The notes below the pieces were generated by a model. The model searched no databases and was not told where the DNA came from. It saw only the letters and a program-made list of their open reading frames with translations. This document shows, one piece after another, positions 3,214 to 44,435 of a stretch of DNA of 64,000 nucleotides; within the stretch, counting starts at the first letter, position 1; every line of letters starts with the position of its first letter. The DNA comes from an uncultured Cryomorphaceae bacterium (lineage in GTDB: Bacteria > Bacteroidota > Bacteroidia > Flavobacteriales > Schleiferiaceae): positions 1,752,068 through 1,816,067 of the forward strand of contig CAKZJV010000007.1 of NCBI GenBank assembly GCA_937120475.1. The letters run 5' to 3'. The translations under genes were made by a program, and so were the position numbers.

Positions 3214-4854
3214 ATGCTACCAAAAATCGACCCAACTTCCACCTCCTCCTGGCAACAATTGATCGAACATCAAAAGGAAATTTCCAGTGAGCACATGCGG
3301 GAATGGTTTATTAACGACCCGTTGCGATTCAAAAAGTTTTCGCTGGAGTTCCAGAATATTCTGTTCGACTTTTCAAAAAACCGCATCCAAAAGAAAACAC
3401 TTACCCTTTTGGAATCGCTTTTTGAGGAGTGCAAAGTTCGGGAAAGTATTGAAGCCCTCTACCAGGGTGATCGCATTAATGAAACCGAAGACCGCGCAGT
3501 ATTGCACACCGCCCTCCGGAATGTATCAGGAGAACCGGTTTACGTGGATGGTAAGGACGTAATGCCGGAAGTAAAACAGGTGTTGGAGCAAATGAAAAAA
3601 TTTTCCAACCAACTCATTTCCGGCCAGTGGAAAGGGTTTACCGGTAAGGCCATTACCGATGTGGTAAATATTGGTATTGGCGGTTCTGACCTGGGCCCTG
3701 ATATGGTTTACCAGGCTCTCCGCCCCTACCACCAATCCCATATTTGTTGCCACTTTGTTTCCAACGTGGACGGAGCACATATTACGGAAACCCTTAAAGC
3801 GTTGCAGCCGGAAACCACCCTGTTTATTATTGCTTCCAAAACCTTCACCACCCAGGAAACCATGACCAATGCCGAAACAGCGCGTAATTGGTTCCTGAGA
3901 TCAGGAGAAGAAAAAGATATTTCCTTCCATTTTGTGGCCGTTTCCACCAACCGGGAGAAAGTGGAAAGCTTCGGAATAAATCCCGCTAACATGTTTGTTT
4001 TTTGGGACTGGGTAGGTGGGCGCTATTCGCTGTGGTCATCTATTGGCCTCTCCTTGTGCTGTGGACTGGGGTACGCTAATTTTCATGCACTGTTAGAAGG
4101 TGCACATTTAATAGATGAGCATTTTCGGCAAAAGCCTTTTAAAGAAAACATACCCATGCTTATGGCGGCCATTGGTATTTGGTACACTAATTTTTGGGGA
4201 ACCTCTTCTGAAGCCATATTACCTTACGATCAAAACCTGAAACGCTTTGCGGCTTACTTTCAGCAAGCTAACATGGAGAGCAATGGCAAATCAGTAAACC
4301 GGAACGGAAACGCAGTGAATTATGCCACTGGTCCCGTAGTTTGGGGAGAACCCGGCACCAATGGGCAACACGCCTTTTATCAACTGATACACCAGGGAAC
4401 ACAACTTATACCTTGTGATTTTATAGGCTTTGTACAATCTCATTATTCGCTCGATCATCATGAAAAATTACTGGCTAATTTTTTCGCACAAACTGAAGCA
4501 CTAATGAAGGGTAAAACCCGGGAAGAAGTTATAGCGTATGAACCAGATTTAGAGGCCAATAAATATCCCTTCAAAGAATTTAGTGGGAATAAGCCTACAA
4601 ACACTATATTAGCATTAAAGTCAGACCCCAAAACCTTGGGAATTCTGATCGGTTGTTACGAACATAAAATTTTTGTACAGGGTGTAATCTGGAATATTTT
4701 TTCCTTTGATCAGTGGGGTGTAGAACTGGGCAAGCAACTTGCTAAACATATTTTACCGGAACTTAAAAATGCCGCGAGAGTAAGTGATCACGATAGCAGC
4801 ACCAACGGATTGATCAATTTTTACAAGAAACATATTCCGGGCCCTGGTGATTAA
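3214..4854 (+). CDS. pgi: Glucose-6-phosphate isomerase
   Basis: 546 aa from the ATG at 3214 ([13 protein letters not shown]...). The open frame reaches back to 3157, but the upstream part is unlike the family and contains the putative promoter. ATG 3208 is an alternative. Signature regions are present: [15 protein letters not shown] (phosphate loop), [18 protein letters not shown] (catalytic Glu/Arg region) and a C-terminal [15 protein letters not shown]. It interconverts glucose-6-P and fructose-6-P in glycolysis and gluconeogenesis. A hybrid histidine kinase begins 3 nt after its stop, so the two are probably cotranscribed. Confidence 0.96.
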
Positions 4855-35956: not shown

Positions 35957-37813
35957 TTATTGATTTATCCAGGCCTTACGCATTTTCATTTGTTGCGGGG
36001 TAGGATTTTCCATCAGCCTTAGATCATGACTGCGGCTTACCTCACCCATTTTTGCTTCGGCTTTCAAGGTTTTTTCCTTGTAGTCATCGCCCTTCGGGCG
36101 GGCGATTTTTACTTTTACCTTATCCCCTACTTCCGTGTTGGCCGCATAATCATTCAGCACTTCGGAAATGTTGCTGAGGTTAACTTCCTGGCCGTTGAAT
36201 TCAATGAGTTCATCATCTTTCTGCAGCCCCAACTCGCGACCAAAGGCATCCATGTTTTCAGTGCTTTCCACACGAATGCGGTTGGTTTGAAAATTATAAC
36301 TGAAAGAAACATTGCCGGAGCTGATCTGCGGAATCTTCAACTCGCGGTGGTATTCAACCCCGGCTGAAGCCAACAGGTCTTCAAGGGGAAAGGGTTCGGC
36401 ACCCTCATAATGCCGCGCAAAAAACTCACGGATTTCAGGATAGGTCATTTCGGCAATAATATCGAAGAGTTTGTCGTCTCTAAAAAAGGTATCCACTCCG
36501 TAGGTTTGGCCCAATTCCAACAAGAGGTCCACCAAACCATATTCAGCATCCGAAAGCTGACGCAGGCGAAGGTCCAATGCCATTCCTGCTATAGCGCCCT
36601 TTTGATAAAAATTAAAATACTGGCCTTTAAAATAGTCGATGGTAAACTTACTGGCTACCGTGAGGGGTATTTTAGAGTCGAACTTATCGTTGGCCTTGAG
36701 CTTATCGCGGATAATATCCAAAAACTCATCGGTGCTGTAAATATCGCTGCGTATTTGCACGAGATGCGAATTGTATTCCGTTACCCCTTCGTACAACCAT
36801 ATATGGGCCGACATTTCGGGATTGATAAAATTGAAATCCGCCACGTATTCAGAGTGTATATTCAAAGGGGTTACAATGTGAAAAAACTCGTGGGAAGTAA
36901 TATCGCGAACACCTCCGTAAAAGGTTTCACCCGGAAATTCGGGCATGTACAGTACGGTGGAGGTATGGTGCTCCAGGGCACCGTAACTATTCCCGGCCTT
37001 GTCCAGCGGCACACAATAAATCAGAACAGCGTATTTATCCACGGGCAGTGAACCCCCCAGGTAAACCGCAGCCGCATCCAGAACGGGTGCTACGCGATCC
37101 ATACATTCTGCAGCAGTAATGCTTTTATTAGGGCTGAAAACCGAAACCATTACTTCGGCACCACCTACCTGGCGGGTAGCGGTATCCGGCACACAATACA
37201 GAATGGGGTTATCATGCAGGGTAAAATAATCGCGGGCGGTAAAAAAGTCGGAGCCATTATCATCCAGTGATTTAATTGGCAGGGAAGTACTTGGATAAAA
37301 GCCTTCTTCGCGCGCTATTTCAAGGTTAAAAGGGTGGTCTTTATAACCATCAACGTAGCCAATAAAACCGAAGTTGTTCAGCAGGAACACTTTTTCCTCT
37401 ACCGAGGTACCAGCCGGCTCAAAAATATCAACGTCCTCTTCGCTATCATACGTATCGTCAACCAGGTAGCTGATTTTATATAATTTTTGAGCGTTCATAA
37501 TCTGCCAGCGGTTGGTATCCAGCCGGTTCACCTTCAACTCCTTACCCATGGCATCCAAAGCCTTGAAGTTGCTCACAAAGCGCCCGAAATCCTCAATGGC
37601 ATAAGTACCGGGTACTATTTTAGGCATGTGAAACTCAGCGGTGCTTTCGGTAATTACAGGAGGAACAATCTCGACCGGCAAGCGATCATTTTCCACGGCC
37701 GTCAGGTTCATAAAAACCGAGTAGGACTCATCGTTCTGGAAAGGTTCGAACTGGGCCTGGGCCAGGCTCACGGTAGCGGTGAGCGTAATCAAGGTTATTA
37801 AGGATCGTGTCAT
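35957..37813 (-). CDS. M61 family glycyl aminopeptidase-like protein with PDZ domain
   Basis: 618 aa with a signal peptide (MTRSLITLITLTATVSLAQAQ). The N-terminal beta domain leads into the gluzincin domain with HEFFH (His308, Glu309, His312) followed by NIHSEYV and WLYEGVTEYNSHL, which holds the third ligand. A C-terminal PDZ domain (about 525-600, DELIEFNGQEVNLSNISEVL) follows. It probably works in the periplasm. It sits between an ABC permease gene (38 nt) and the M13 peptidase (4 nt). Confidence 0.93.
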   Translation of the reverse strand: MTRSLITLITLTATVSLAQAQFEPFQNDESYSVFMNLTAVENDRLPVEIVPPVITESTAEFHMPKIVPGTYAIEDFGRFVSNFKALDAMGKELKVNRLDTNRWQIMNAQKLYKISYLVDDTYDSEEDVDIFEPAGTSVEEKVFLLNNFGFIGYVDGYKDHPFNLEIAREEGFYPSTSLPIKSLDDNGSDFFTARDYFTLHDNPILYCVPDTATRQVGGAEVMVSVFSPNKSITAAECMDRVAPVLDAAAVYLGGSLPVDKYAVLIYCVPLDKAGNSYGALEHHTSTVLYMPEFPGETFYGGVRDITSHEFFHIVTPLNIHSEYVADFNFINPEMSAHIWLYEGVTEYNSHLVQIRSDIYSTDEFLDIIRDKLKANDKFDSKIPLTVASKFTIDYFKGQYFNFYQKGAIAGMALDLRLRQLSDAEYGLVDLLLELGQTYGVDTFFRDDKLFDIIAEMTYPEIREFFARHYEGAEPFPLEDLLASAGVEYHRELKIPQISSGNVSFSYNFQTNRIRVESTENMDAFGRELGLQKDDELIEFNGQEVNLSNISEVLNDYAANTEVGDKVKVKIARPKGDDYKEKTLKAEAKMGEVSRSHDLRLMENPTPQQMKMRKAWINQ

Positions 37814-37851: not shown

Positions 37852-40257
37852 TTATTCGTATTTGAGGGTATCCACGGCTTTTACCCGTGCAATTTTAATG
37901 GAGTGATAACTGATGATAATGTAGGCCAGCAAAATAGCCAGTAAACCTGAGCTCACAAAAATAAGAGGATGTAAATTAGTGGTATAGGCAAAATTGGAAA
38001 GCCAGCCACGGGTAAGTATGTAGGCCAACGGCAAGGCCAGTACTACGGAAATTATGATGAGCCATAGCATTTCACGAAACACCAACGAAACCACCTGGCG
38101 CACATCTGCCCCTAAAACCTTCCGGATTCCTATTTCCCGGGTTTTTAAATTGGTGGTAAAAGAGGCCAAACCGGTAAGCCCTAAAAAGGAAATGAAAATG
38201 GCCAGGTAGGTGAGGTATAATATCAACTGGCTTTGCCGTTGCTCTTCCTCGTAAAGCTTGAACAGATCGCGGTTGAGGAAGGAAAACTGGAAAGGCACCC
38301 CCGGTGTAAGCTTGGCAAAGGTCTTCTCCAGGTCATTCAGCGCACTTAAAAGGTTTTCACTATCCACACGAACGTGTAAATACCCGGCTGTTTCTTCCTG
38401 GTAAGTCATAATGGTAGGCTCAATATCGTCATGCAACGAATGAGCATTGAAGTCGCGCACCACCCCGATTACCTGGCCGGGGTAATTTTCGGCCTGACCC
38501 GGAGCTACAATTTCAACCTGTTGCCCGATGGGGTCCTTCCACCCCATCATACGCACCATAGCCTCGTTCACCACTACGGGATAGGTCTCCAGCTCTTCCG
38601 GCTGCCCGTTGAAACCTTGGCCTTTTACAAATTCCATTTCCATGGTTTGAAAATAATCAGCCCCCACCATCATAAAGTCCACCACCTGCTGCGAGGCCAC
38701 ACCTTCCATACCCGGAAAGTTAATCACAATACGATCTACCGATTTACCCGGAATGGTTTGCGCACTACTGCTGCTTTTTACATAGGGACTGCGCGCCAGT
38801 TTTTGACGGATATCCGATATACTGCGTGCCGTGAGCGTATCCCGTATGGGTATGAGAAGCACGTCTTCTTTATTAAAACCCAGGTCTTTTTGTTTTACGT
38901 AATCCATTTGCTGGTACATCAAGGTGGCGGTGATCACCACGGCCACCGAAGCCGTAAACTGAAAACCTACCAGCAGCTTGCGCACCCCCAGTCCCCGGTT
39001 TCGTTTCACCAGGCCTTTTTTAATGGCTGCCAGTGCCGGAACATTGCTTAGGTAAATGGCGGGAAACCAACCGCTCAGGAAGGCAATTATAGCCGCAAAT
39101 AACGGAGCCAGCCACCATAGCGATGAATAGCGGCTGAGATTCAGAGAGAGGTCTTTATTCATGATACTGTTGAGAGGGGTGAACTCCAAAACCAACTCTA
39201 CCGTAGCCAGCGCTACCAGCAAGGCTGCTGCTCCCAAAACCAGTGATTCGATAAGCACCTGATAGACGATTTCCCGCTTACCGGCACCCAGCACTTTTTG
39301 CATACCCGCCTCCTTAATCCTTCTAAGGCTTCGCACCGTGGCCATGTTTACATAATTGATGCAGGCCAGCACCAGTATTAAAAGGCCAATGCCGCTGAAT
39401 GCGTACAGGTAGCCACGGTTACCGGAAGACTGATCGTACTTTACGTGATTGTTGAAATGTACCTTATCCAGGCGGGTAAGGTTAATATCGTAACCGGCCT
39501 GTAAACCACTGCCTGACTCGGCCATGTACTTATCGTAAAAACCGGGGAACGACTCTGTCAGTTGCCCGGCTTCTGTAGGCTTATTAAGCCGTAAAAATGT
39601 GTGTGCTTCTATTTGCCAGAGGGAATTTTCCCAGCTTTCCAGCTTTTCATCCTGGTAAAAAGAGGAAATTAATGCGGAAAATATATGGTGGGTATTGGCG
39701 GGAAAGTCATCGATAATGCCAGTTACCGTGTATTCATAATTGTTGGTATTGATAACTTGCCCCAGGGGTAGTTCTTCCTCAAAATATTTTTCAGCGAAGG
39801 AGCGGGTAATTACAATGGACTGTGGTTTTGAAAGGGCGTTATCGGGATTTCCCGCTAAAAAAGGCAGCTCGAAAACCCGGAAGTAGTTGCGGTCCGCCAG
39901 GGCTACACCGGCATTTCCAGCCTGCACGCCCGGGCGTTTAAACAACACGCTTTCATTAATGTGGATCAAGCGGGTAGTGCCTTCAACGTAGGGAAACTCC
40001 CTTTCCAGCAAAGGTGCAAGGCCCACTCCGGCACCTCCGTATTCCTCCAATTGTTCATCTACCCTGAACACAGAGCTCACCCGGTATATTTCTTTATAAT
40101 TGGGAATATGCTGATCGTAGGTGATCTCGCTCCGCAGGTATAAAAAAACAATAATGCACACCCCCAGGCCAATGGCTAGCCCCATTACGTTCAGCAAGGT
40201 ATAAACCCGGCTTTTCATCAGTGATCGAATGGCAAATTTTAAGCGGAACTTATGCAT
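37852..40257 (-). CDS. ABC transporter permease, MacB/FtsX type with two MacB-PCD domains
   Basis: 801 aa from the ATG at 40257, which begins [19 protein letters not shown]. The longer frame to 40326 would lie inside the ATPase gene. Layout: a first membrane helix at about 22-42, a large periplasmic domain, three helices (about 285-420), another helix near 450, a second periplasmic domain, and three C-terminal helices. This is the duplicated FtsX/MacB form widespread in Bacteroidota. Start and upstream stop overlap (ATGCATAA), so the ATPase and permease are translationally coupled. Likely extrudes a peptide, lipid or drug, or transmits force to the envelope. Confidence 0.92.
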   Translation of the reverse strand: MHKFRLKFAIRSLMKSRVYTLLNVMGLAIGLGVCIIVFLYLRSEITYDQHIPNYKEIYRVSSVFRVDEQLEEYGGAGVGLAPLLEREFPYVEGTTRLIHINESVLFKRPGVQAGNAGVALADRNYFRVFELPFLAGNPDNALSKPQSIVITRSFAEKYFEEELPLGQVINTNNYEYTVTGIIDDFPANTHHIFSALISSFYQDEKLESWENSLWQIEAHTFLRLNKPTEAGQLTESFPGFYDKYMAESGSGLQAGYDINLTRLDKVHFNNHVKYDQSSGNRGYLYAFSGIGLLILVLACINYVNMATVRSLRRIKEAGMQKVLGAGKREIVYQVLIESLVLGAAALLVALATVELVLEFTPLNSIMNKDLSLNLSRYSSLWWLAPLFAAIIAFLSGWFPAIYLSNVPALAAIKKGLVKRNRGLGVRKLLVGFQFTASVAVVITATLMYQQMDYVKQKDLGFNKEDVLLIPIRDTLTARSISDIRQKLARSPYVKSSSSAQTIPGKSVDRIVINFPGMEGVASQQVVDFMMVGADYFQTMEMEFVKGQGFNGQPEELETYPVVVNEAMVRMMGWKDPIGQQVEIVAPGQAENYPGQVIGVVRDFNAHSLHDDIEPTIMTYQEETAGYLHVRVDSENLLSALNDLEKTFAKLTPGVPFQFSFLNRDLFKLYEEEQRQSQLILYLTYLAIFISFLGLTGLASFTTNLKTREIGIRKVLGADVRQVVSLVFREMLWLIIISVVLALPLAYILTRGWLSNFAYTTNLHPLIFVSSGLLAILLAYIIISYHSIKIARVKAVDTLKYE

Positions 40258-40933
40258 GCAACAACTGCTTTTCAGAAACAATGTGCCCATCCACCAACTT
40301 GATAATTCGGTTGGTGTAGGCGGCATCGTTCATGGAGTGGGTTACCATAATTATGGTGCTGCCCGCCTCATTCAGGTTGCTGAGCATCTCCATAATTTCG
40401 TTGCCGTGCTGCGAGTCGAGGTTACCGGTGGGTTCGTCTGCCAGAATAAGAGCCGGGTTGGTTACAATGGCTCTTCCGATGGCTACCCGCTGCTGCTGCC
40501 CCCCGGAGAGTTCGTAAGGGGAATGGGCACTGCGGTGCCCGAGCCCGATTTGTTCGAGTATGCGGTCCACCCGTTTTTTGCGTTCCCCGCTTTTTACACC
40601 GAGATATACCAATGGTAATTCGATATTCTCAAAAACACTGAGTTCGTCAAGGAGATTGAAATTCTGAAAAATGAAACCAATGTTTCCCTTGCGGAGCTTT
40701 ACTTTTTCCCGTTCGGAAAGGTTGCGCACATCGGTATCGTTAAAAATGTACAGGCCGCTGTCGTATGAATCCAACAGCCCGATAATGTTGAGCAAGGTGG
40801 TTTTTCCGCAGCCGGAAGGCCCCATTACCGAAACAAATTCGCCCCGGTCAACTTTAAGGCTAACCTCTGAAATAGCACGGGTTTCAACCGAACGTGTATT
40901 GTATGTTTTTACCAGATGATGTAAATGGATCAT
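40250..40933 (-). CDS. ABC transporter ATP-binding protein, MacB/LolD family
   Basis: 227 aa. Walker [10 protein letters not shown] (38-46), Q-loop FIFQNFNLL, signature [15 protein letters not shown], Walker [13 protein letters not shown], and His-switch MVTHS are all intact. This is the typical partner of the FtsX-like permease encoded next. The 288-nt gap upstream contains a large inverted repeat, so expression may be controlled there. Confidence 0.95.
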
Positions 40934-40959
40934 TCTGCTGCAAGATTATTAAAATAGAA

Positions 40960-41039
40960 AAAGCCCTCTGCCGGGATGTTTTGTACGTTTAACACAAAAT
41001 TACCTACAAGGTAAAAAAGAACTTGGCAAAGAGGGCTTT
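40960..41039 (-). promoter_or_regulatory. Long-range inverted repeat, possible structured leader or attenuator before the ABC operon
   Basis: Perfect 10-bp arms AAAGCCCTCT (40960-40969) and AGAGGGCTTT (41030-41039) enclose 60 nt. On the minus strand the enclosed part can form two further hairpins, ACCT/AGGT and TTTTGT/ACAAAA, which would give a three-way junction. The right-hand end runs into TTTTTC, terminator-like. Inside it, TAATTTTG (minus, 41002-40995) matches the -7 consensus with a TTTG 24 nt upstream in the outer arm. It could therefore be a leaky terminator, an attenuator, or a promoter with paired operator arms. Confidence 0.45.
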
Positions 41040-41079
41040 ATGGGTACTAACAAAGAATGATCTTAAAAAAACCCGGAGT

Positions 41080-41166
41080 GGTACAGGACGAAGTATAACC
41101 GATTAACCCTAAAATTCTGCTACTTGAACTTGAAATTAAACAACCAATTGACATCCGACCTGTACC
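41080..41166. repeat. Distant inverted repeat GGTACAGG/CCTGTACC
   Basis: Perfect 8-bp arms at 41080-41087 and 41159-41166, both next to CCGG-like bases, separated by 71 nt. They are in the same gene-free region as the 10-bp repeat. Function unknown; could be chance. Confidence 0.3.
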
Positions 41167-41221
41167 GGAAACTAATTTAATATGATGAAAGAACTAATGC
41201 TGATTCACAGCTTATCCGGGT

Positions 41222-41578
41222 TTAAAGTCGTACGTAACGGACGCTTATTTCATGAACTTTATTGGCCAGTGCCTCGTTAATGGCAATCTTTTTACCCTTG
41301 AGCATTTGGGTTACATACTGGTTTACCAGGCAATTTTCGCCTTCAACACTTACTACGGCCAAATCGCCCTCTTTATTCATTACGAATTGTAGATTTACTG
41401 AGGCATCGTCAAGGTTTAGCTTGTGCATTTCCAGGGCTTCGAGGGTTGAAACCACATTGGACTTCAGATCTTCAACCGTTTCCATCGGTTTTTCTTCAGG
41501 TGTGGCAGCGGCTCCCGTAAAGCCTATCAGAGACAGGCTTACGAGTAGGGCCATTGCTGTTGTTCGGATAGTTGACAT
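41222..41578 (-). CDS. Small exported protein, predicted sigma-54 target of the adjacent response regulator
   Basis: 118 aa with a signal peptide (cleavage near FTGAAA, residue 25). The mature part has a helical start (TVEDLKSNVVSTLEALEMHK) and a beta-alpha end, VNLQFVMNKEGDLAVVSVEGEN...YVTQMLKGKKI, that looks like the TonB C-terminal type of fold seen in small Bacteroidota periplasmic proteins. That likeness is tentative. Upstream lies a -24/-12 promoter and two palindromes. It is divergent from the NtrC-type regulator gene and precedes the ABC operon on the same strand. Confidence 0.75.
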   Translation of the reverse strand: MSTIRTTAMALLVSLSLIGFTGAAATPEEKPMETVEDLKSNVVSTLEALEMHKLNLDDASVNLQFVMNKEGDLAVVSVEGENCLVNQYVTQMLKGKKIAINEALANKVHEISVRYVRL

Positions 41579-41613
41579 TTTTTTATGTTTTAGTTTTCGT
41601 TACTTAAAGAATG

Positions 41614-41628
41614 GCAAGCCGCGTACCT
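41614..41628 (-). promoter_or_regulatory. Sigma-54 (-24/-12) promoter of the small exported protein gene
   Basis: The minus strand reads AGGTACG-CGGC-TTGC against the consensus TGGCACG-N4-TTGC. GG (41627-41626) and GC (41615-41614) are separated by exactly 10 nt, as sigma-54 RNA polymerase requires. Expected transcription start near 41602, 24 nt before the ATG. Confidence 0.7.
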
Positions 41629-41681
41629 AAAGTTTATCGTTTTGATTTTCAGTTGTTTATTTTTTTGTGTTCTCAAAAAGG

Positions 41682-41697
41682 TGTTCGCTAACGAACA
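41682..41697. promoter_or_regulatory. Palindromic activator site 1 (TGTTCG/CGAACA)
   Basis: TGTTCGCTAACGAACA has perfect 6-bp arms around CTAA. Its centre is about 88 nt upstream of the predicted sigma-54 start, the usual distance for an enhancer-binding protein site. A further TGTTC half-site lies at 41668-41672. Confidence 0.65.
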
Positions 41698-41701
41698 GTA
41701 A

Positions 41702-41733
41702 TTTGTTCGATTTTGAACAATAGAATACTTTCA
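41702..41733 (+). promoter_or_regulatory. Housekeeping promoter of the response regulator gene
   Basis: TTTG (41702-41705), a 20-nt spacer, TACTTTCA (41726-41733), a partial match to TAnnTTTG. Palindrome 2 occupies the spacer, so bound regulator would block this promoter. Confidence 0.4.
41703..41720. promoter_or_regulatory. Palindromic activator/autorepressor site 2 (TTGTTC/GAACAA)
   Basis: TTGTTCGATTTTGAACAA has perfect 6-bp arms around 6 nt. It shares the TGTTC/GAACA core with site 1, and the centres are 22 bp apart, about two helical turns, so dimers would sit on the same face of the DNA. Confidence 0.65.
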
Positions 41734-41737
41734 TCCC

Positions 41738-43099
41738 ATGGAAAGTAACTACCGTATTCTTGTTGTTGATGACGATGATGATATCCTCACTTCTGCGCGA
41801 TTGCTGCTAAAGCAGCGCTACGCCAAGGTGGTTACCATTTCTGATCCGCAGGTGCTTAACCACAATCTTTCCAAGCACCACCCGGACCTGGTTTTACTGG
41901 ATATGAACTTCCGCAGGGGAGTGAATGACGGCCGGGAGGGGATGTACTGGCTGGAACATATTATGGAGGTAAGCCCGAAAACGCAGGTGGTGCTAATGAC
42001 GGCCTACGGTGAGGTAGAGCTGGCGGTGGCCGCCATTAAAAAAGGTGCCTATGATTTTGTGCTGAAACCCTGGACCAATGAAAAGCTGATATCCACTTTG
42101 GATAATGCCCTGCGCCTGGGCCGGGAACAAAAAAAGGTGGAACAGTTGGAACAAACCAAAACTTCGCTGGAAGAGTCTTTGGGCCTTACACCCGAAGACC
42201 TGGTGAGCCGTTCATCGGCCATGCGCCAGGTTTTGGAAACCATACAAAAGGTAAGTGCAACGGATGCCAACATTTTATTGCTGGGTGAAAACGGTACGGG
42301 AAAAAGTGTTCTGGCCATGACGCTTCATCGTCTTTCCCACCGTAACCGCAATTCCTTTATTACGGTTGATTTAGGGGCATTGAATGAAAACCTTTTTGAG
42401 AGTGAGCTTTTCGGACATAAAAAAGGGGCTTTTACCGATGCCCACGCAGATAAACCGGGCCGTTTTGAGGTGGCTCATGAGGGAACCATTTTCCTGGACG
42501 AAATCGGCAACCTTCCGTTGAGCCTACAGGCCAAACTATTAACGATCATTCAAAACCGAAAGGTTACCAGGCTTGGAGAAAACCGCGAAAGGCAGGTAGA
42601 TGTGCGTTTGATTACCGCTACCAATATGCCAATCCGGCAAATGGTGAATGAGGGCAGCTTCCGGCAGGATCTTTTATACCGCATCAATACGGTTGAAATT
42701 GAAGTTCCTCCCCTACGGCAGCGGCAGGAGGATATTCCCATCCTGGCCAAGCGTTTCCTGGACCGCTTCAGCAAAAAGTACCACAAGCCCAAACTTTACT
42801 TTAGTGAAGAGGCTATTGATCGCCTGTGTGATTACCACTGGCCGGGCAACATCCGGGAACTGGAGCACGCCATAGAGCGGGCGGTTATTATGAACGAAGG
42901 GCAGGAAATTCAGAATTTTGGTTTGCAGTTGGAGGAAAACGGTAGCCTAAGGCCCGATGACCTGAACCTGGAAAGTATGGAGAAACACCTCATTGTGAAG
43001 GCCCTGGAAAAATACAAGGGAAATATTTCAAGGGCCGCATCGGAGCTGGGTATTACCAGGGCCGCACTGTACCGCAGAATGGAAAAGCATGACATTTAA
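41738..43099 (+). CDS. Sigma-54-dependent response regulator (NtrC family)
   Basis: 453 aa: receiver domain (acidic pocket DDDDD, phosphoacceptor Asp55 in LVLLDMNF), an AAA+ ATPase domain with Walker A GENGTGKS (183-190), and a C-terminal Fis-type helix-turn-helix (ISRAASELGITRAALYRRMEKH). The sigma-54-contacting loop is GAFTDA (230-235) rather than the canonical GAFTGA. It activates sigma-54 RNA polymerase when phosphorylated. The last 11 nt overlap the kinase gene, so the two form a cognate pair. Likely targets are the divergent exported-protein gene and possibly the ABC operon beyond it. Confidence 0.95.
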   Translation: MESNYRILVVDDDDDILTSARLLLKQRYAKVVTISDPQVLNHNLSKHHPDLVLLDMNFRRGVNDGREGMYWLEHIMEVSPKTQVVLMTAYGEVELAVAAIKKGAYDFVLKPWTNEKLISTLDNALRLGREQKKVEQLEQTKTSLEESLGLTPEDLVSRSSAMRQVLETIQKVSATDANILLLGENGTGKSVLAMTLHRLSHRNRNSFITVDLGALNENLFESELFGHKKGAFTDAHADKPGRFEVAHEGTIFLDEIGNLPLSLQAKLLTIIQNRKVTRLGENRERQVDVRLITATNMPIRQMVNEGSFRQDLLYRINTVEIEVPPLRQRQEDIPILAKRFLDRFSKKYHKPKLYFSEEAIDRLCDYHWPGNIRELEHAIERAVIMNEGQEIQNFGLQLEENGSLRPDDLNLESMEKHLIVKALEKYKGNISRAASELGITRAALYRRMEKHDI

Positions 43100-44435
43100 T
43101 CACTTCGGTTTTGGGTTGGCTATGCGTATCGGTTTAATTCTGTTAAACCTGATCCTGTTTGCATTGGCCATAAGCAGTGCACAATTGCTGTTCACTTTTA
43201 TTTTAATGGGCCTCATACTAATAGGCCAGGTAGCTGAACTGTGGCACTTTGTTAACCATACCAACCGCGAACTGAATAAATTCTTTCAGGCTATTCGGCA
43301 CGAAGACTATTCCGTACATTTTTCAGGGCATGGCCGTGGCAAAAGCTTTCAGCAGCTGGACCAGAACTTTAAGGAGCTGATTGAAAAACTAAAGCAGTCG
43401 CGTATGGGCCAGCAAAGCCAGGCGGAATTGCTGCAAACGGTAATGGAGAATGTGAAGGTGGGAATAATTGTGGTGGAAGAAGGTGGCAGTGTAACCTTTA
43501 TGAATCACAACGCCCGTGAACTGTTGCAGTGCCCCCACTTTCACAATTGGGAGATGTTCAGGAAAAGGAAACCTTCTTTTGCAGAGGCCCTTGGTGATTT
43601 CAACTTTGGAGGCAGGCGCTTGATACAACTGGATGACCGGGAGTTTTACCTGGACCTGGAACACCTCAGTCTCTTGGGTCAGCGATATCACCTCATCTCC
43701 TTTTCCGATCTGCTTAACGAAATCGAACAAAAGGAAATTGAGGCCTGGCATAAATTAATTCGCATACTGGCTCACGAGGTTATGAATTCCGTTACGCCCA
43801 TCAGTTCCCTTTCGGATACGGTATATAAGATGCTATCCAATGCCGAGGGAAAACCGATTGCTCCGGGAGAATTTACTGCCGACCGTATCGAGGATATCCG
43901 TGAAGCCATGGGCACCATAGTCCGCAGAAGCCGGGGGATGTTGAGCTTTGTAGAAGAGTACCGCAAGCTCACCAAATTACCGGCTCCAAACCTGGAAGTA
44001 GTTTCTTTAGCTGAGCTCTTAGAGGACGTAATTAAACTAATGAAGCCCCAAATGGCCCACGCTACGGTTCAGATTAAAATGGAGTTAGAACAGCCAAAAC
44101 TGGCGGTTAAAGCGGATCGTAAGATGATTGAACAGGTTTTGATTAACCTTATCAGCAACAGCATTTATGCCCTGGAAGGGAAGCATGACGGCCTTATTAC
44201 CTTGGCCGCCAACCGCAACGATGAACATACTTTGTTACGAGTTACCGATAACGGTAAAGGGATACCGGAAGAATTGGTGAACCAGATTTTCATTCCCTTC
44301 TTTTCTACCCGTAAAAACGGTTCCGGCATAGGCCTTACCCTCAGCAAAAATATTATGAAGCTGCATAACGGCAGCATTACCGTTCAGTCACGGGAAGGAG
44401 AGGGCACTTCTTTTTTACTGAGTTTTCTGAATTAA
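43089..44435 (+). CDS. Sensor histidine kinase, cognate partner of the NtrC-family regulator
   Basis: 448 aa. Two N-terminal membrane helices (about 12-30 and 33-52) with almost no loop between them, so the signal is probably sensed in the membrane or cytoplasm. A PAS-like domain (about 110-215) precedes the H-box LAHEVMNSVTPISS (His229), followed by HATPase boxes NLISNSIYAL, DNGKGIP and GSGIGLTLS. It overlaps the response regulator by 11 nt. The genes converge with a T9SS cargo gene. Confidence 0.94.
   Translation: MTFNHFGFGLAMRIGLILLNLILFALAISSAQLLFTFILMGLILIGQVAELWHFVNHTNRELNKFFQAIRHEDYSVHFSGHGRGKSFQQLDQNFKELIEKLKQSRMGQQSQAELLQTVMENVKVGIIVVEEGGSVTFMNHNARELLQCPHFHNWEMFRKRKPSFAEALGDFNFGGRRLIQLDDREFYLDLEHLSLLGQRYHLISFSDLLNEIEQKEIEAWHKLIRILAHEVMNSVTPISSLSDTVYKMLSNAEGKPIAPGEFTADRIEDIREAMGTIVRRSRGMLSFVEEYRKLTKLPAPNLEVVSLAELLEDVIKLMKPQMAHATVQIKMELEQPKLAVKADRKMIEQVLINLISNSIYALEGKHDGLITLAANRNDEHTLLRVTDNGKGIPEELVNQIFIPFFSTRKNGSGIGLTLSKNIMKLHNGSITVQSREGEGTSFLLSFLN

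Follow-up and report, generated by a model that had tools for sequence, protein, structure and literature searches.

A putative sigma-54 switch with twin palindromes precedes two predicted terminator-closed RNAs, one of them antisense to a SusC leader, in marine Bacteroidota

Main finding

From the analysis of a 64-kb stretch of DNA (the window) and of its relatives, it was judged probable that an enhancer-dependent sigma-54 promoter gives rise to a small RNA (sRNA) that represses the translation of SusC, and that in some genera the promoter also yields an exported protein resembling TonB-C. The family that carries this switch consists of little-known marine bacteria. We proposed that a kinase would phosphorylate an NtrC-type regulator, which would bind twin palindromes, activate sigma-54 polymerase at 41614-41630 and hinder polymerase on its own promoter, filled by the second palindrome. 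The transcript would carry the TonB-C-like exported protein, where present, followed by two structured RNAs, RNA1 and RNA2, which in the window's genus may form one transcript. RNA2 would then pair with the mRNA leader of a SusC/RagA-type TonB-dependent transporter before the start codon and block translation, and the signal is perhaps an envelope disturbance. The features of the window are listed below in order of position, each with the evidence used.

37852-40326, minus strand: MacB/FtsX-type (ADOP-like) permease (domain matches)
40250-40933, minus strand: ABC exporter ATPase (domain matches)
40958-41039, minus strand: RNA2, a predicted second terminator-closed hairpin (arms, fold, conservation)
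40985-40998, minus strand: candidate seed of RNA2, TTTGTGTTAAACGT, 14 nt, antisense to a SusC start region elsewhere in the genome (word search, duplex energies)
41062-41228, minus strand: RNA1, a predicted structured, terminator-closed RNA (alignment, model, fold)
41222-41578, minus strand: 118-aa exported-looking protein with a TonB/TolA C-terminal-like fold (gene comparison, AlphaFold2, Foldseek)
41614-41630, minus strand: putative sigma-54 -24/-12 element (sequence, spacing in relatives, rpoN)
41682-41697, no strand: promoter-side enhancer palindrome TGTTCGCTAACGAACA (counts in window, genome and relatives)
41702-41733, plus strand: putative sigma-ABfr-type promoter of the regulator, TTTG-N20-TACTTTCA (by eye, 16 close loci)
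41704-41719, no strand: regulator-side palindrome TGTTCGATTTTGAACA, overlapping the regulator promoter (counts and promoter comparison)
41738-43099, plus strand: NtrC-type response regulator with receiver, sigma-54 AAA+ with GAFTDA and Fis-type HTH domains (Pfam, motifs)
43089-44435, plus strand: histidine kinase with PAS (domain matches)

Twin palindromes and the putative sigma-54 promoter

The palindromes, the -24/-12 element and the TTTG/TACTTTCA pair of the original prediction were all present at their claimed positions when both strands were re-read. On the minus strand, positions 41630-41614 read TTAGGTACG-CGGC-TTGC with 10 nt from GG to GC, and the predicted start at about 41602 lies 24 nt 5' of the ATG at 41578 of the 118-aa gene. 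The centres of the palindromes are 22 bp apart and stand about 88 and 110 bp from 41602. The exact TGTTC-N6-GAACA occurred twice in the 64-kb window, as these two palindromes, against an expectation of 0.05, and none of 100 shuffles contained two; the count in the window exceeds chance. A scan of the window's own genome, suggested as a check, returned three places, two of them being this pair, and one place for the reversed control. The rpoN gene, on whose presence the prediction depended, was found in the same genome. Hence all three marks of a sigma-54 promoter, GG-N10-GC, upstream activator sites and rpoN, were found here.

Further, 119 relatives were searched with the regulator, and 20 members of the window's family carried an orthologue at 60-100% identity. 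The twin-site pattern with its phase fixed at 22 bp was detected in 24 of the 119 relatives (control 0), comprising the 20 same-family genomes together with G073, G088, G084 and G095, each of which has it at the regulator locus; conservation of the palindromes in relatives was thereby confirmed. With the phase fixed, 17-20 of 20 conserved letters were matched in all 20 same-family loci. When the phase was left free, two strict sites were recorded in 11 of these 20 loci and lay 22 bp apart in every case. G089, with a regulator 55% identical, gave no match to the 22-bp-phased pattern. The distance from the start of the promoter-side palindrome to the -24 GG was 70 bp in 13 and 69 bp in one of the 16 closest loci, among which L008 and L010 failed the strict GG-N10-GC test; no GG-N10-GC match was present in the scanned range of L018-L020. 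One extra twin-site pair each was found in G010 (L092, G010:C12 near 61814) and G026 (L093, G026:C3 near 66537), both of g9, where it stands, as read by eye, before another short exported-looking protein.

Regulator, kinase and the regulator's own promoter

The assignment of the regulator to the NtrC type was upheld by Pfam matches above cut-off for the receiver, the sigma-54 AAA+ and the Fis-type HTH domains, and the histidine kinase gene is next to it. Walker A/B and arginine-finger motifs were present. The sigma-54 contact loop (residues 230-235) read G(A/S)FTDA, not GAFTGA, in all 25 orthologues read, and four paralogues had GAFTGA or GSFTGA at this loop. The GAFTDA variant speaks against the proposal; the word itself is mentioned in published work. 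The kinase is hydrophobic at residues 5-55, and its N-terminus is probably made of two helices with almost no loop.

On the plus strand, TTTG (41702-41705) is followed after 20 nt by TACTTTCA (41726-41733) and by the regulator ATG at 41738, and the second palindrome lies for the most part within the 20-nt spacer. In 16 of 16 close loci, read by eye, NTTG borders the regulator-side palindrome and is followed at 20-22 nt by TA(C/T)(T/C)TT. Therefore, both the promoter of the regulator and the filling of its spacer by the palindrome would be conserved as well. The start codon stood 4-5 nt after TA(C/T)(T/C)TT in 15 of the 16, with the start in L010 not fixed, and the regulator mRNA may be nearly leaderless. 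From the overlap of site and promoter we infer that the regulator would repress its own gene.

The small exported-looking protein

It had been proposed that the regulator both activates the small protein and represses itself. The regulatory part of this claim agrees with the NtrC-type activator, the fixed-phase sites, the promoter at a fixed distance, rpoN and the site within the regulator promoter (16/16). The small protein as the purpose of the switch was not supported, its gene being intact in 9 of the 20 same-family loci (L002, L003, L005-L009, L019 and L020). No ORF of this type was recognised by eye in L004, L010, L011-L018 and L021, and in G018 as well as in the seven genomes of g15 the promoter is followed by RNA1, the small protein being absent.

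The 118-aa protein is exported-looking as judged from its hydrophobic N-terminus. It had no Pfam or NCBIfam match at 0.001, and at E values of up to 10 only weak unrelated matches were obtained. AlphaFold2, supplied with eight sequences, predicted an alpha-beta-beta-alpha-beta arrangement with a mean pLDDT of 80. The first 13 PDB matches in Foldseek were the C-terminal domains of TonB, TolA, HasB or FusB (best E 7e-3, none at or below 0.001), which supports a TonB-C-like domain by fold only. An alternative would be that the switch exists for this protein and that the RNAs are merely the 3' end and the terminators of its transcript. The ORF behind the promoter in 9 of 20 loci and the predicted foldable TonB-C-like domain speak for it; the switch kept without the small ORF in the other 11 loci and a nearly invariant RNA1 core in all 20 speak against it, and we regard this alternative as improbable.

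RNA1

We favoured the reading in which the switch has RNA as its output. The non-coding block between the promoter and the ABC gene persists where the small gene is absent; in the window, the first stem of RNA1 overlaps the stop codon of the 118-aa gene. The 14-mer of the RNA1 core was detected in 21 of 119 genomes, namely in all 20 same-family orthologue carriers and in G028. By comparison of these sequences, RNA1 is the most conserved predicted product of the sigma-54 promoter. Sixteen members were aligned and modelled (model R1), and the model matched 16 of the 119 relatives, with one copy each, at the regulator locus. Among 395 genomes of the class, scored under strict filters with nine candidates per genome, the only match was the window's own. 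A 22-base pattern of the core matched 16 contigs in a genome contig collection and no viral contigs. Against Rfam 15, neither RNA1 nor RNA2 gave a match over the gathering score, and the three matches obtained (E 0.12-0.68) were far below it; neither RNA was assigned to a known RNA family.

The layout of RNA1 comprises an outer stem P1 leading into a U-run (a predicted terminator), a short hairpin P2, a long variable stem P3 and a near-invariant core. In P1 and in P3, the own arms outdid swapped ones in pairing (0 of 20000 permutations for each), and the fold in the window had a z of -4.8. The inner helices P4 and P5, tried by covariation, showed zero two-sided changes in a core that hardly varies and were left without support. 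In g9 (L018-L020), RNA1 is enlarged and runs on into the RNA2 part, and a single terminator closes the whole. Antisense partners of RNA1, searched for in 20 genomes with two of three 12-14-nt pieces of the core (those other than the piece around UUGGUUGUUUAA), were rejected; 9 of 28 and 3 of 17 places lay outside RNA1, which did not exceed the reversed controls. As a separate observation, a conserved 18-codon hydrophobic mini-ORF (M-I-x-x..ISKLF-stop) was noted by eye between RNA1 and the ABC gene in L011 and L013-L016.

RNA2 and its candidate seed

A terminator-closed hairpin with TTTGTGTTAAACGT was found between RNA1 and the ABC gene in eight loci (g1, g4 and g19). It was absent from the genus g15, G017 and G018, and in g9 it lies inside the fused RNA and has diverged in G026. 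Counting the identity, 4 of 40320 permutations of the RNA2 arms attained the sum of the own pairings, and the fold in the window had a z of -3.9. Two marks of an sRNA were found in the sequence, an intrinsic terminator and a conserved seed complementary to the translation start of a target. As the terminator ends RNA1 before RNA2, RNA2 may need read-through, processing or a promoter of its own.

The 14-nt word was fixed from the conservation of RNA2 before the target was known and was then searched in 119 genomes. It was recorded at 24 places in 11 of them, and the reversed control at 8 places in the 119 genomes. The places, classified by reading 13 stretches, were 10 in RNA2, 8 antisense to a SusC leader, 5 in another hairpin and 1 unplaced (G098).

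The other hairpin carries TTTGTGTTAAACGT in sense at a second locus, represented by L073 (approximately 3900-4060, reverse; G000:C7 near 2487389), L076, L078, L080 and L082, and is possibly a paralogous sRNA. In L073, L076 and L078 it lies between AI-2E-like permease and cupin-like genes, both assigned by eye. A sigma-54 promoter for it was considered and rejected, with a strict GG-N10-GC close by in one of the five loci (L073, 59 nt before the word). L076 had two GG-N10-GC matches, 184 and 414 nt away, and TGGYAY-like letters were seen by eye in all five loci. No twin palindromes were present within 520 nt at these loci.

The proposed SusC target and the strength of pairing

Of the 10 genomes whose RNA2 has the word in its exact form, 8 carry the complement of TTTGTGTTAAACGT 10-11 nt 5' of a SusC-type start codon. 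The target in the window's genome belongs to the SusC/RagA family (TIGR04056, 385 bits, cut-off 368) and has plug and barrel. The RNA2-SusC duplexes of the eight genomes were calculated at -39.9 to -50.1 kcal/mol, with shuffled-target means of -17.7 to -21.9 kcal/mol and a lowest single shuffled-target duplex of -36.7 kcal/mol. For the pair of the window, 38-40-nt pieces gave -32.6 kcal/mol, and the starts of 57 window ORFs gave a mean of -9.9 and a minimum of -19.0 kcal/mol.

Some changes were matched on both sides, namely G-C in g9 against U-A in g4 and G020 beside the seed, UAGUA for UAGGUA in G031, and three A in g9 against four in G020. In g1, a mismatch and a bulge of 2 nt interrupt the pairing. 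The advantage of own sRNA-target pairs over swapped ones was modest, with 716 of 40320 permutations as good, and the own pair of G020 was the second weakest in its row. It could also be supposed that TTTGTGTTAAACGT is the DNA site of some transcription factor common to SusC and the two hairpin loci, rather than an sRNA seed, as it is short, conserved and present at one to three places per genome. Such a site would not explain why the word at SusC is always antisense and 10-11 nt before the start codon, why at the hairpins it is always in sense and within the stem-loop, or why the RNA2-SusC match extends past the word with some matched changes, and this explanation was considered very unlikely.

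Some genomes without the antisense site count against the proposal. G001 has the exact seed, with its 11-nt core nowhere else in the genome, and G023 has the exact seed with the 11-nt core elsewhere at two unrelated places only; the best matches to the target there were 36% and 29% identical, respectively, over about 260 aa, so that neither has a close orthologue. G026, with a diverged seed, had no antisense site and a best target match of 35%; a compensating target was searched for in this genome and none was found. The SusC orthologue of g15, 70-73% identical, is without the antisense site; it is in two pieces in G056 and has an internal stop or is split in G016. In G002, G005, G020, G031 and G039, only the first 255-272 or so residues of the target gene product resemble the target of the window's genome (43-52%), with weaker matches beyond, and yet these genes retain the leader and its antisense site. 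A swap of the barrel part of the target is possible in these five genomes (L096, L106-L110).

Pairing of the RNA1 core with the SusC leader was tried as well and was rejected where RNA2 exists, as it differed from shuffles by no more than about 1.5 sd in five of six genomes; in G005 it was about 2 sd stronger. In g15, RNA1 had a 10-nt complement to codons 2-5 of SusC in six of seven genomes (5-12 of 1000 shuffles as long) and an 8-nt complement to the leader. The seventh, G037, had 8 nt only, with 122 of 1000 shuffles as long, and 19 other receptor-gene starts gave 6-9 nt with RNA1. Pairing of RNA1 with SusC in g15 may be taken as a weak lead.

For a fuller version of the proposal, our confidence was evenly balanced. 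There, a sigma-54 two-component envelope response would have a two-domain non-coding RNA as its main output; RNA2 would silence SusC, the second hairpin with the same seed would help, and RNA1, as a new structured class, would do a separate conserved job, whether on other targets, by binding protein or by attenuating the exporter.

Relation to known systems

Sigma-54 and NtrC-type regulators control sRNAs in Proteobacteria (GlmY-GlrR, CrcZ-CbrAB and NrsZ). These systems share with the present one an enhancer-binding regulator that together with sigma-54 drives a small RNA, but differ in the RNAs, the targets and the phylum, and we know of no SusC target of GlmY, CrcZ or NrsZ. The sigma-E sRNAs RybB and MicA and the paralogues OmrA and OmrB exert envelope-linked control that silences the mRNAs of outer-membrane proteins. 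The likeness lies in envelope-linked sRNAs acting on outer-membrane mRNAs, the stress signal here being a guess, and the sigma factor, the sequences and the targets differ. BceS-type kinases stand beside FtsX-type permeases. The present kinase, likened to them by its layout, also has a hydrophobic N-terminus with little loop and is near an FtsX-type ABC permease, but here the regulator is of the NtrC type and works, by prediction, with sigma-54.

The FopS sRNAs of Bacteroides thetaiotaomicron repress susC mRNAs at the translation start, and their promoters are described as canonical sigma-ABfr promoters (PMC11697453). GibS of the same species is an earlier relative of FopS (PMC7366714). FopS and GibS resemble RNA2 in belonging to the same phylum, in pairing, as is proposed for RNA2, around a susC-type start codon to stop translation and in having a seed common to paralogous RNAs. 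The FopS genes, as described there, have sigma-ABfr promoters and no linked activator, whereas here a putative sigma-54 promoter, a linked NtrC-type regulator with its kinase and a co-located exporter were found. The RNA2 seed would also differ from those of FopS and GibS.

A literature search, with subscription journals mostly outside its reach, found no report of RNA1, RNA2 or such a combination. Repression of SusC by sRNA is already known in Bacteroides; the RNAs described here look new, as does the two-component control through sigma-54. If true, the proposal would connect a membrane kinase in Bacteroidota, by an enhancer-dependent route, with the control of SusC transporters by an sRNA; the sites, the seed and the target are named closely enough to be tested directly by mutation. 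Structured RNAs without an Rfam match would be added for a phylum in which regulation by RNA has been described chiefly in Bacteroides of the gut. The case also illustrates that what a promoter conserves may be an RNA, although a small protein gene behind it catches the eye first.

The exporter operon

The small gene was correctly predicted to precede a MacB-type operon, but two predicted terminator-closed RNAs lie between them. In G088 and G084, from other families of the order, the regulator and kinase with the twin sites front an HlyD-type adaptor, an ABC ATPase and a MacB/FtsX permease, with no RNA seen at the switch. In the window's family, the small protein and/or the RNAs occupy the place of the adaptor. 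Because an adaptor-exporter stands behind the switch in G088 and G084, attenuation in cis stays the main rival, or an added role of RNA1.

In that rival, RNA1 and RNA2 would be cis attenuators, a two-stage terminator leader gating sigma-54 transcription into the ABC exporter, and the SusC match would be secondary. It would account for the constant position of RNA1 and RNA2 between the promoter and the ABC gene, for the single copy per genome found by the model, for closing stems that end in U-runs, for the mere 29 nt from terminator to ABC start in G018, and for the arrangement in G088 and G084, where the switch is followed at once by the exporter. It leaves unexplained the eight antisense sites at the same position of the same kind of gene and the same word in another hairpin, and no competing antiterminator pairing was identified. 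We regard it as unlikely, though less so than the other two alternatives, and prefer repression of SusC by RNA2.

A gene for an M61-type peptidase with PDZ follows the permease at 35957-37813 in the window and at L067:9050-10903 in G005. Similar-sized genes follow the permease in L071 and L072, and hence the M61-type peptidase gene may belong to the operon.
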